64,000 bases of DNA. Source: Microbacterium murale (GTDB taxonomy: Bacteria; Actinomycetota; Actinomycetes; Actinomycetales; Microbacteriaceae). The translations under genes were made by a program, and so were the position numbers. The stretch covers positions 1,612,001 to 1,676,000 of the forward strand of contig NZ_JAUSXK010000001.1 in the NCBI RefSeq assembly GCF_030815955.1. Direction: 5' to 3'. A model generated the notes under the pieces. It saw only the letters and a program-made list of their open reading frames with translations, made no database searches and was not told the origin of the DNA. Positions 43,046 to 48,685 of the stretch are shown piece after piece; position 1 is the first letter of the stretch, and each line of letters begins with the position of its first letter.

Positions 43046-44422
43046 CTACCACCGGATGCGCGCGAATTCCTCACGAAGTCTCTCGCCTCGACTGCTGTTC
43101 AAGCTTTCGACCCACGAGATCCGCCCCAGCAGGTGGGCGCGAAAGTCGTCGATCTGGCGACGATTCTGGCTCGTCGGGCCATGCATGACGCAGTTGTGGA
43201 TCGTCGCCTTCAGCCGGTCGTACTCGGATCTCGAGATGTTGACGTGCTGGTTGACGACGATTCCGGTGACGGTCTGCCTGACGCCCTGGCGTCTGACTCT
43301 CGTCTTCCTCGCGTTGACCGAATGCCCCTCGTCCTCGATGATCCGCTCCGCTCCGCGCACGAAGGCATCCGCTCGCTTCGCGAGCGCACGTCCACCGCTG
43401 AACGCGAGGTCGTCGGCGTATCGCGTGTATGTCGCATCGACGGACTCCGCCCATCCGGCGAGGCGCGAGTCGAGACGTCGGATGGCGAGGTTCGCGAGCA
43501 TCGGCGATGACGGTGCACCTTGCGGGAGGTGACTCGTGGCGAGAGCGCGGCGCAGTGCGAAGCGCTCATCCGGCGATCCCCCCGACGGCATCGCCGCGAG
43601 TGCCCACGGCGGGACGGCGTTGGTGCACAGTCCGGTGATGATGTGCGCGACGGATTCTGAATAGCCCGATTGGCGAAGCGTGCCGTAGACGCGACCTGCG
43701 GTCACTCGCGCGAAGAACGTCGTGAGATCGAGGGAGATGACCGCGTCTGACCCGATGTGACGCGCGGCCCCGGTCGCAGCGCTTCGGCCGGGGATGAAGC
43801 CATGGGCTGCGTCATTGGCCGGAATGAGGGCGAGCACGCTCGAGAGCAGCGTGCTCTGGACACGACGAAGCCGCTGCTCCGGAACTTCCAGCAGTCGCGG
43901 GATCCTTCCCGGCCTCGTGCGCCATTCGTAGCGGTAGTGGTGGAGGGGGCCGGGGCGCGCGCGCCGATTCCAGTGCTTCGTGTCGGCGAACCACTGCAAC
44001 TGGCCGATGTCGAGGGCGAGCAGGGCAGCGAGATCTCGGATGCTGTCGATGCTGGGGAGCGCTCCGGACATCTCGCGCGACGCCGAAGCGCTGAGGACGT
44101 GATGGTGCACTCGAAGTGGCGAGCGGCGCTCGTCGGCCTTGCGGACCGCCTCTTGGAATGCGGGGGCGTTGAAGATCAGCGAGGTGAGCAGACGCGGGGC
44201 GTCGTGGGGTGGGCGGACGAACGCGCTCATGACATCGCCGACGAGCGGTAGGAGCCATCGGCGCCGCGCTCCCATGACGTATGCCCCGGACTCGATCAGC
44301 TGACCCGTCGCCCAGACATCTGCTGCGAGGAACGCATCGGCCAGAGCCGCGGCGACCGCGGAGGACGACGGACGCGGCTTCCGCGCGAGCACGCGCGATG
44401 CGACCGTCGCCGCCTCCGTCAT
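43046..44422 (-). CDS. Retron-type reverse transcriptase with N-terminal extension
   Basis: 458 residues. The RT core runs from about residue 160: AHGFIPGRS (207-214), a variant of the retron NAxxH motif (GAARH, 218-222), first catalytic Asp D232 (ISLDLTTFF), LPQGAPSSPMLANL (299-312), the YADD box at 335-338 and the retron VTG motif at 385-387 (QTVTGIVVN). Residues 1-150 match no domain I know and look helical. No maturase or endonuclease domain follows, which argues against a group II intron. An msr-msd-like element lies 44 bases upstream. No clear Shine-Dalgarno is seen. Retrons make RNA-linked DNA for anti-phage defence; the effector here is unidentified. Confidence 0.93.
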   Translation of the reverse strand: MTEAATVASRVLARKPRPSSSAVAAALADAFLAADVWATGQLIESGAYVMGARRRWLLPLVGDVMSAFVRPPHDAPRLLTSLIFNAPAFQEAVRKADERRSPLRVHHHVLSASASREMSGALPSIDSIRDLAALLALDIGQLQWFADTKHWNRRARPGPLHHYRYEWRTRPGRIPRLLEVPEQRLRRVQSTLLSSVLALIPANDAAHGFIPGRSAATGAARHIGSDAVISLDLTTFFARVTAGRVYGTLRQSGYSESVAHIITGLCTNAVPPWALAAMPSGGSPDERFALRRALATSHLPQGAPSSPMLANLAIRRLDSRLAGWAESVDATYTRYADDLAFSGGRALAKRADAFVRGAERIIEDEGHSVNARKTRVRRQGVRQTVTGIVVNQHVNISRSEYDRLKATIHNCVMHGPTSQNRRQIDDFRAHLLGRISWVESLNSSRGERLREEFARIRW

Positions 44423-44466
44423 CAGAAGGCGGCCATCGACGGAGCGGCGGATGGAACGTCGTGCAG

Positions 44467-44481
44467 CGTGCGATGGCTTGC
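44467..44481 (-). repeat. Retron a2 inverted repeat
   Basis: GCAAGCCATCGCACG on the minus strand, perfect partner of a1. It ends 44 bases before the reverse transcriptase start codon, the usual place for a2. Confidence 0.85.
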
Positions 44482-44620
44482 GGACGACCTGTCCATCAGT
44501 GCGGGCACCGGTCTGCGCGAAGCGCAGTGAGGCGCCTGCGGCGTTCGTTCCAGATCAAACTGCGTGCCCCGGGGTGACCCCGGAGAGGGCGGAACACATC
44601 GTGAACCACCCGCCTCGTCT

Positions 44621-44635
44621 GCAAGCCATCGCACG
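44621..44635 (-). repeat. Retron a1 inverted repeat
   Basis: CGTGCGATGGCTTGC on the minus strand pairs perfectly with 44467-44481. It would form the closing stem of the msr-msd transcript. The predicted transcription start falls at or next to its outer edge. Confidence 0.85.
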
Positions 44636-44640
44636 GCGCC

Positions 44641-44649
44641 ACGATAGCA
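44641..44649 (-). promoter_or_regulatory. Extended -10 promoter of the retron
   Basis: On the minus strand TGC-TATCGT (44649-44641) is an extended -10 box. Transcription would start near 44634, at the outer edge of a1. No good -35 box lies 16-18 bases upstream, which is tolerated by extended -10 promoters. Confidence 0.4.
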
Positions 44650-44950: not shown

Positions 44951-45556
44951 TCAGGCCACCGGCTTGTGCCAGACCACCAGATAGCGCCACATCGCCAGTC
45001 GTGACCAGGTGGCGCCCGGCAGCACGGTGCGGGCGCTGCGGCGCACCTCGGCATATGTGTGCGGAGGCGGCCACACGATCGGCGCCGAATGCTCCCAGAT
45101 GCCGTGGCGGCGACTGTAGCCGTTCTGCTGCACGAGCCCGGCGAGGTCGTAGAGGAAGTCGATCGGCCCCGACGACCTCGCCAGCCCCACCACGGCCAGC
45201 ACCCCACCCGGGGCGGTGAGCTCAGCCAGGCGGAGGAGCGTCTTGTCGAGGTCCGGCAGATGATGAACGGTGGCCACTGAGGCGACCACATCGAACGACG
45301 CGGGCGGAAACGGATGACTCATCACGTCGCCCTGGATCCAGCGCACACCCGGATCCTCTGACCGTGCGGATTCCAGCACTGCGGCATCGATGTCGATTCC
45401 GGTCACGTCGGGCACACGCGCATGCAGGTCGGCGGCAAGCAGGCCGTTCCCTGTGCCGAAGTCGAGCGCTGTTCGCGCCCCTGCCGGCACCGCATCGAGG
45501 ATACGACGGTGATAGTGGATGTTGTTGTTCCACCGCACCGGCCGCGCATCCGTCAT
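44951..45556 (-). CDS. Class I SAM-dependent methyltransferase
   Basis: 201 residues. The SAM site is LDFGTGNGLLAADL, followed by GIDIDAAVLESA (acidic loop) and FDVVASVATVHHLPDL, the UbiE/Methyltransf_11 pattern. The C-terminal part (SARTVLPGATWSRLAMWRYL) is typical of small actinobacterial methyltransferases. Substrate unknown. It ends nine bases from the S4 gene, convergently. Confidence 0.88.
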   Translation of the reverse strand: MTDARPVRWNNNIHYHRRILDAVPAGARTALDFGTGNGLLAADLHARVPDVTGIDIDAAVLESARSEDPGVRWIQGDVMSHPFPPASFDVVASVATVHHLPDLDKTLLRLAELTAPGGVLAVVGLARSSGPIDFLYDLAGLVQQNGYSRRHGIWEHSAPIVWPPPHTYAEVRRSARTVLPGATWSRLAMWRYLVVWHKPVA

Positions 45557-47065: not shown

Positions 47066-47833
47066 ATGAGAATCACAGTCATCGGTGGAACCGGTCTGAT
47101 CGGCGCCAGGCTCGTTCGAACTCTGCAATCGGCCGGTCACGAGATCGTCGTCGCGGCGCGGGCGACGGGCGTCAACTCCTACACCGGCGAGGGCCTGGAG
47201 CAAGCTCTGTCCGGCGCAGAAGTCGTCGTCGACGTCTCCAACTCGTCGTATACCGACGAGGCGGCCGCCCGCGAGTTCTTCTACACCTCCACCATGAATC
47301 TGCTCAGCTACGGTGAGGCCGCCGGCGTGCGCCATCACGTCGCGCTGTCGGTGGTCGGCACCGATCGTCTCGCCCGCGCCGAAGGCGGGTACTTCATCGC
47401 CAAGGAGCAGCAGGAACGTCTCATCTCGGCGTCGCAGCGACCGTTCTCGCTCGTGCACGCGACGCAGTTCTTCGAATTCATCCGGAACATCACGGATCAT
47501 GCAGTGCGCAGCGGCGTCGTGCGGGTCGCCGACGTTCTCGTCCAGCCCATGGCCGCCGACGATGTCGCAGCAGCTGTCGCGCAGACGGCAGTCGGAGAGC
47601 CGATCTACGGCACGGTGGAGTTCGGCGGGCCGGAGGTCTTCAGTCTCAATGAGCTGGCCGTGCTCGATCTGCGGTACCGCCAGGACGAACGCGAGGTCGT
47701 CCCCGACCCGCTCGGCACCTACTTCGGAGCCCATCTGGCTCACCGTGATCTGCTGCCGGAGGCCACGGCCACGATCGCGTCGACCCGGTACCACGACTGG
47801 CGCATCCGGAACGCAGCCGCGTCGCGATCCTGA
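47066..47833 (+). CDS. NmrA-like NAD(P)-binding oxidoreductase/epimerase-type SDR
   Basis: 255 residues of the atypical extended SDR type. The cofactor loop is ITVIGGTGLIGARLV, followed by VVVDVSNSSYTD, HHVALSVVGTDRLA and the active Tyr-type segment YFIAKEQQERLI, then VHATQFFEF. No YxxxK in classical spacing except YFIAK. ECF41 sigma factors are typically linked to oxidoreductase or epimerase genes of this kind. AAGGAG precedes the ATG. Substrate unknown. Confidence 0.9.
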   Translation: MRITVIGGTGLIGARLVRTLQSAGHEIVVAARATGVNSYTGEGLEQALSGAEVVVDVSNSSYTDEAAAREFFYTSTMNLLSYGEAAGVRHHVALSVVGTDRLARAEGGYFIAKEQQERLISASQRPFSLVHATQFFEFIRNITDHAVRSGVVRVADVLVQPMAADDVAAAVAQTAVGEPIYGTVEFGGPEVFSLNELAVLDLRYRQDEREVVPDPLGTYFGAHLAHRDLLPEATATIASTRYHDWRIRNAAASRS

Positions 47834-47879: not shown

Positions 47880-47929
47880 TTAGCTCATGGATGCCACGAC
47901 GGCACTCCCCCAATCAGAAAGGCATGAAA

Positions 47930-48685
47930 ATGGCAAAGATCGTCGTCATCGGAGGCACCGGCCTCATCGGCTCGAAGGTCGTCGCGAAGCTGACCGAGCA
48001 CGGCCACGAGGCCGTCGCCGCTTCGCCCAACACGGGGGTCAACACCCTGACCGGAGAGGGCGTCGCCGAGGTCCTCACAGGGGCGAACGTGGTCGTCGAC
48101 GTGTCCAACTCGCCGTCGTTCGCACCCGATGATGTCCTGGAGTTCTTCACCACCTCCACCAGCAATCTGCTCAAGGCTGAGGCCGCTGCCGGCATCAACC
48201 ACCACGTCGCCCTCACGATCGTCGGCACGAACCGCCCGCAGAGCATCCCCTATTTCGCGGCGAAGGTCGCCCAGGAGAAGCTCATCCGCGAATCCGGCAT
48301 CGAGTACTCGCTCGTGCACGCCACGCAGTTCTTCGAGTTCATCGGGAGCATCGCCGACATCTCGACCGAGGGCGACACTGTTCGCCTTCCCGGGGCGCTC
48401 ATCCGGCCCATCGCCGCGGAAGACGTCGCCACTGCCGTGGCGCGTGCCGCGGCCGGCGCGCCGCTGGGCGATGTCGAGATCGCCGGACCCGAGGCGTTCG
48501 GCATGGACGAGTTCATCCGCCGAGGGCTGACGTTCCGCGGCGACTCCCGCACCGTCGTCCGCGACGACGATGCACCGTACTACGGCGCCAAAATCGAGGA
48601 ACGCACGCTCATCCCACTCGATGGCGCGCAGATCTTCGAGACGCGGCTCGACGAGTGGCTGCCGCTCAACCCGCCTCGCAAGTAA
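47930..48685 (+). CDS. NmrA-like NAD(P)-binding oxidoreductase/epimerase-type SDR
   Basis: 251 residues, a tandem paralogue of the preceding gene: IVVIGGTGLIGSKVV, NTGVNTLTGEGVAEVL, VVVDVSNSPSF, HHVALTIVGTNR, YFAAKVAQEKLI and HATQFFEFIGSIAD occur in the same order. ATG 47930 is seven bases after AGAAAGG; ATG 47924 is also possible. It has its own ECF41-type promoter, so the duplication has kept independent but common control. Confidence 0.9.
   Translation: MAKIVVIGGTGLIGSKVVAKLTEHGHEAVAASPNTGVNTLTGEGVAEVLTGANVVVDVSNSPSFAPDDVLEFFTTSTSNLLKAEAAAGINHHVALTIVGTNRPQSIPYFAAKVAQEKLIRESGIEYSLVHATQFFEFIGSIADISTEGDTVRLPGALIRPIAAEDVATAVARAAAGAPLGDVEIAGPEAFGMDEFIRRGLTFRGDSRTVVRDDDAPYYGAKIEERTLIPLDGAQIFETRLDEWLPLNPPRK

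Follow-up and report, generated by a model that had tools for sequence, protein, structure and literature searches.

A probable two-part retron, composed of a structured RNA and its reverse transcriptase, in Microbacterium murale and related bacteria

A 64,000-nt stretch of Microbacterium murale DNA (NCBI RefSeq assembly GCF_030815955.1, contig NZ_JAUSXK010000001.1, positions 1,612,001 to 1,676,000; hereafter the window) carries a gene for a retron-type reverse transcriptase (RT) preceded by a 169-nt non-coding RNA element of msr-msd type. We conclude, with a probability of roughly 0.88, that this locus is a two-part retron consisting of the RNA and the RT, an effector gene not being found beside the RT; such a pair is predicted to produce a small DNA-RNA hybrid in many copies. 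A first-pass annotation had called the retron complete, which holds for the RNA and the RT but not for an effector. It had described a 169-base element ending 44 bases before the RT start codon and closed by a perfect 15-bp a1/a2 repeat, and both were recovered (Table 1). The repeat pairs CGTGCGATGGCTTGC with its exact complement and can be lengthened to 21 nt with one mismatch (95% complementarity); no other perfect 15-mer inverted repeat of the window has arm starts at most 320 nt apart. The locus shows an a1/a2-closed RNA beside an RT with YADD, VTG and region X (as GAxxH), a conserved guanosine at the a1 end, whose use as primer is proposed by analogy, and an RT that groups with retron RTs by profiles and fold, while the NCBIfam retron cut-offs are not reached.

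The 169-nt RNA has a predicted fold of -97.9 kcal/mol (z -6.1), and none of 200 shuffled sequences folded as well. Homologous loci were drawn from the genus (7 close copies in 198 genomes), genome contigs (17 loci), family, order, phylum and plasmids. Loci lacking the RNA element were looked for, and it adjoins the homologous RT in 72 of 74 loci, among which some species are present twice (L001-L007, 7/7; L019-L035, 16/17; L036-L065, 30/30; L066-L085, 19/20). In one of the two misses (L032) the region upstream of the RT is truncated by the contig edge. Hits were kept to E 1e-8, giving 57 distinct sequences once 9 duplicates were removed; the alignment (A1) holds 44 distinct rows picked from them by score, the 13 weakest being excluded. 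In these 44 homologous RNAs standard pairs fill 95.5% of the pair cells, and two-sided compensatory changes occur at 28 of the 43 consensus pairs, and at 12 of 14 in the a1/a2 helix. None of 500 shuffles reached any of five covariation measures, and slid controls gave pairing of only 39.9-46.3%. The consensus structure was derived from the same 44-row alignment, which favours it, though the margins over slid and shuffled controls are still wide.

In the consensus fold the msr part forms two hairpins and the msd part a single long one, the two-small, one-large plan that had been read from the window. In msr hairpin 2 no pair showed a two-sided change among the 44 rows; this hairpin is without covariation support because it is nearly invariant in sequence. 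The G directly after the a1 stem, the candidate priming G, is invariant in 44/44 rows. The RNA is both structured and conserved. A covariance model matches the window at 44464-44638 with 181.4 bits, the window's own sequence being part of the model, and within the genus it found the RNA in 7 of 198 genomes, the same seven that carry the close RT. No match at E <= 1 was obtained beside 11 RT loci of other types (L008, L009, L010, L013, L139, L141-L146); the model sets this RNA family apart from other retrons. Some of these are other Microbacterium RTs, whose best PADLOC models are III-A (L008) and VII-A1 (L009, L010, L013).

The RT carries the motifs first annotated, YADD at residues 335-338, VTG at 385-387 and a variant of NAxxH, namely GAARH at 218-222, compared to NATPH in Ec86. 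A helical N-terminal domain (about residues 20-98) precedes the RT part (about 118-458). RVT_1 is the sole Pfam domain, and the absence of a maturase or endonuclease domain, as judged by Pfam, agrees with the earlier description. The best PADLOC profile, RT_other, aligns over residues 6-458, near full length, with 578.9 bits, and the best PDB matches of the predicted fold, ranks 1-14, are all retron RTs. In a tree of retron-type RTs, which held no named non-retron RT, the family forms one side of a branch with support 100/99. The RT is therefore retron-like by sequence, predicted fold and tree.

With this PADLOC RT model, homologues were detected at E <= 1e-90 in 35 of the 299 family genomes, and at E <= 1e-60 in 14 of 297 from the order and in 5 of 396 from the phylum, the own genome being included each time. 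Relatives occur in other actinomycetes (e.g. Tsukamurella, Dietzia) and in Burkholderia; the closest named proteins of the Burkholderia relative are, among the matches listed, from Burkholderia, Paraburkholderia and one Janthinobacterium. Relatives of the RT are present on some plasmids, and among phage and plasmid records none covers 80% of the window RT. On a Burkholderia pyrrocinia plasmid (L067) a weak RNA match lies directly upstream of the RT, with the msd apex loop AAC. In two genomes the family RT is in two pieces, adjacent on one contig (G295) or on two contigs (G343); such copies may be in decay, or the assembly may have split them.

Upstream of the RNA, 43 of the 44 rows (all but L058) have a TAnnnT box at the near-fixed distance of 28-33 nt ahead of the candidate priming G; in six control bins placed farther upstream the counts were 1, 0, 0, 0, 1 and 0 of 44 rows. 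This -10 box ends just upstream of a1, and the RNA therefore probably starts at or near a1. In three rows, all from genus g46 (L049, L057, L062), the RNA is directed away from the RT; they form one clade in the RT tree (100/100). The RNA is present in 12 of 15 genomes of this genus, and at the loci L154-L165 it lies opposite to the RT in 10 of 12 and in the same direction in 2. By eye, the ten opposite rows carry GCCTAGGC, mostly inside CAGCCTAGGCTG, a palindrome in which TAGGCT is readable on both strands, and the two same-direction rows are without GCCTAGGC. A two-way promoter at a palindromic -10 box between RNA and RT is thus possible in g46, as far as the sequence pattern goes. This natural arrangement, with RNA and RT on opposite strands, shows that the RNA can be transcribed as a separate unit.

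Read in DNA sense, the msd apex is a triloop with a C-G closing pair in 44/44 rows. The loop is GAA in 23 rows, GGA in 18, GCA in 2 and TCC in 1, that is, GNA in 43/44; in 19 further rows GNA was found 17 times and AAC twice (L067, L072). DNA mini-hairpins with GNA loops on G-C stems melt near 78 C and are nuclease-resistant, according to excerpts of PMC4686876, with related statements in excerpts of PMC10527192. Compensatory changes alter the closing stem whereas the loop rule is kept, suggesting selection on the loop. The cause may also lie at the RNA level, where the loop is complementary (UNC).

Table 1. Coordinates of the retron features (positions in the window)
Feature	Position	Strand	Basis
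Retron-type RT open reading frame (ORF), 458 aa	43046-44422	(-)	ORF, profile and fold evidence
-10 box TATCGT with TTGC before it, putative RNA promoter	44641-44646	(-)	sequence pattern only
msr-msd non-coding RNA gene, 169 nt	44467-44635	(-)	repeat, fold, covariation, model match
a1 arm	44615-44635	(-)	inverted repeat; consensus helices 1-2
Candidate priming (branch) guanosine in ..GAGG..	44614	(-)	invariant; position by analogy with known retrons
msr hairpin 1	44587-44611	(-)	helices 4-5; two-sided changes at 7/8 pairs
msr hairpin 2, CTCCGGGG..CCCCGGGG	44567-44585	(-)	99.4% of cells paired
msd hairpin, predicted template of the multicopy single-stranded DNA (msDNA) hairpin	44501-44539	(-)	helices 7-8; two-sided changes at 8/10 pairs
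msd hairpin apex, DNA sense CTGCGC-GAA-GCGCAG, GNA triloop	44513-44527	(-)	GNA kept across rows
a2 arm	44467-44487	(-)	inverted repeat; consensus helices 1-2

No cis-encoded or fused effector was found among ORFs of at least 90 aa in the window and in the flanks of its relatives, and the locus is accordingly not assigned to the tripartite defence retrons (types I-XIII). Among 34 loci with several-kb flanks no cluster of such ORFs occurred in more than 4, and two of the four loci sharing the most frequent cluster are one locus present twice. A base-composition rule selected 129 neighbour ORFs at 33 loci; among them no PADLOC family had more than 2 matches and no Pfam family more than 3 (best 25 of 34 PADLOC and best 25 of 148 Pfam families, ranked by member number). 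Microbacterium MYb45 (L020) and TPD7012 (L034) have in common a 1,632-nt block with 95.5% identity, which begins some 40 nt ahead of the RNA and ends some 20 nt past the RT stop, and nothing beyond it was matched at E <= 1e-5 over the 11-kb loci. The block common to these two species is putative promoter, RNA and RT only.

By Pfam, the neighbours in the window are an alpha/beta hydrolase, an S4-domain protein, a methyltransferase and a PucR-type regulator. The same S4-domain gene adjoins the retron in the window, in Microbacterium AK031 (L019) and in G004 (L005). Inside the methyltransferase gene, 252 nt (45123-45374) are without counterpart in the AK031 locus. Two adjacent ORFs further on (47066-47833 and 47891-48685) resemble each other by eye, and the first matches NAD(P)-binding epimerase/NmrA families. 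The base composition of the retron is equal to that of the host, as judged by GC content (0.672 vs 0.668 for the window) and third-position GC (0.80 vs 0.81 and 0.78 in two host genes).

If the locus works like known retrons (steps as given in excerpts of PMC6868368 and PMC12887533), the promoter suggested by the conserved box just upstream of a1 would give an RNA of about 170 nt, which a1 and a2 close into one structure, as shown by covariation. The RT would bind this RNA, prime on the 2'-OH of the invariant G and reverse-transcribe the msd hairpin. The expected product is a branched RNA-DNA hybrid in which the DNA part, of about 55-75 nt, would form a hairpin capped by the GNA triloop; it would remain associated with the RT, which has an additional helical domain at its N-terminus. 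The output would most likely be phage defence or another stress response. Since no toxin gene lies beside the retron, this may act via a protein encoded elsewhere or via the RT N-terminal domain, the options being a trans effector, the N-terminal domain or direct msDNA action.

Several results weigh against the two-part retron. The covariance search against retron RNA families, made with Rfam 15, returned no match, so the RNA lies outside Rfam 15, and no description of it was found there or in the literature searched, which left out the main retron classification papers. L071 gave no covariance-model match, its inverted repeat being nevertheless above its ten shuffles, and the Burkholderia RNA match is weak (33.7 bits). 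The 74-nt predicted msDNA strand folds no better than shuffles with general DNA parameters (z -0.29). The RT stays under the curated cut-offs of all NCBIfam retron models (St85, 156.4 vs 235), and its region X, GAxxH, departs from NAxxH; the N is also replaced in Ec48 and Mx65, according to excerpts of PMC6868368. Small or oddly composed partners could escape because neighbour ORFs were chosen by base composition, and the window methyltransferase has a PADLOC mad2 match (60.4 bits), which we read as general methyltransferase similarity.

Two alternatives that deny the retron are both highly improbable. A non-retron RT (group II intron, DGR or DRT class) beside an unrelated structured RNA could be suspected from low NCBIfam matches, 47.8 bits to the group II intron model and 35.6 bits to Drt2. 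Retron profiles however score 3 to 12 times higher, the fold ranks only retrons at the top, and the region read showed neither an intron nor a variable repeat nor an accessory gene; a group II intron RT in particular was rejected, the cut-off being 300 and RVT_1 the only domain. Equally hard to sustain is an RNA that is a cis-regulatory leader of the RT gene and not a template: in most loci it does sit immediately upstream of the RT, but most g46 loci transcribe it away from the RT, and both the a1/a2 plan and the invariant G are as in retrons.

The current explanation of retrons is that they guard toxins. Some are without any clear effector, according to excerpts of PMC8867640, and the present family would add a chromosomal example from Microbacterium and relatives that is compact, has a defined RNA and is without effector. 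We tentatively propose, at clearly less than even odds, an ancient and widespread retron family without toxin partner, in which the whole machine would consist of the RT, its helical N-terminal domain and a nuclease-resistant msDNA with a GNA cap, one genus firing RNA and RT oppositely from a palindromic -10 box. If true, the msDNA-RT particle would itself be what does the work in this retron lineage. Slightly less probable is a tripartite defence retron with a toxin encoded in trans and silenced by the RT-msDNA complex. Characterised retrons act with an effector, as stated in excerpts of PMC12548924 and PMC12887533, and the patchy presence in the genus (7/198) and the relatives on some plasmids are as for defence genes; yet promoter, RNA and RT stand as a block alone in unrelated contexts in two species, and a trans toxin would therefore need to be a common host protein. 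That the RT-RNA pair is a minimal selfish or neutral element, spreading by recombination with no host role, is more doubtful again. Genomic sites do differ between close relatives, but the RNA evolves with compensation, the RT is conserved across genera, most g46 genomes carry the RNA, base composition equals the host's, and no recurring integrase or transposase appeared among the neighbours in the matches listed. For DNA production and editing, the family could also serve as a source of a GC-rich msDNA scaffold from actinobacteria.

The RT clade is already known, since PADLOC models exist for it. RT_other and RT_outgroup (PDLC02949 and PDLC03740; 578.9 and 540.4 bits for the window RT) are also best for the Tsukamurella, Burkholderia and Dietzia relatives; they model the RT only, with no type, RNA or effector attached in the matches obtained. 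By profile, the window RT falls in this untyped RT_other clade and not in types I-XIII. The second-nearest typed profile is type XIII (294.9 bits), represented by Methylobacterium bullatum L143, which itself scores 583.9 bits with RT_XIII vs 321.3 with RT_other. The partner in type XIII retrons is of SWIM type; the L143 RT adjoins an ORF with a SWIM-like motif (by eye), whereas the window is without such a neighbour, and the two RTs lie on different branches of the tree. Membership in type XIII was rejected on profile, branch and neighbour. Retron-Eco1 (Ec86) is without the 120-residue N-terminal part present in the window RT and, by its structure entry title, has a cis-encoded effector, in contrast to the window retron, where none was found. 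Retrons are named by the length of their DNA, 65 nt for Mx65, which is close to the length predicted for the window retron. Retron-Mxa2 (Mx65) of Myxococcus xanthus has an extended N-terminus, a replaced NAxxH asparagine and a priming G in GAGC, according to excerpts of PMC6868368. Likened by these described traits only, the window RT shares the extended N-terminus and the replaced asparagine with Mx65 and differs in the context of the candidate priming G, which is GAGG or GAGA in the present family.
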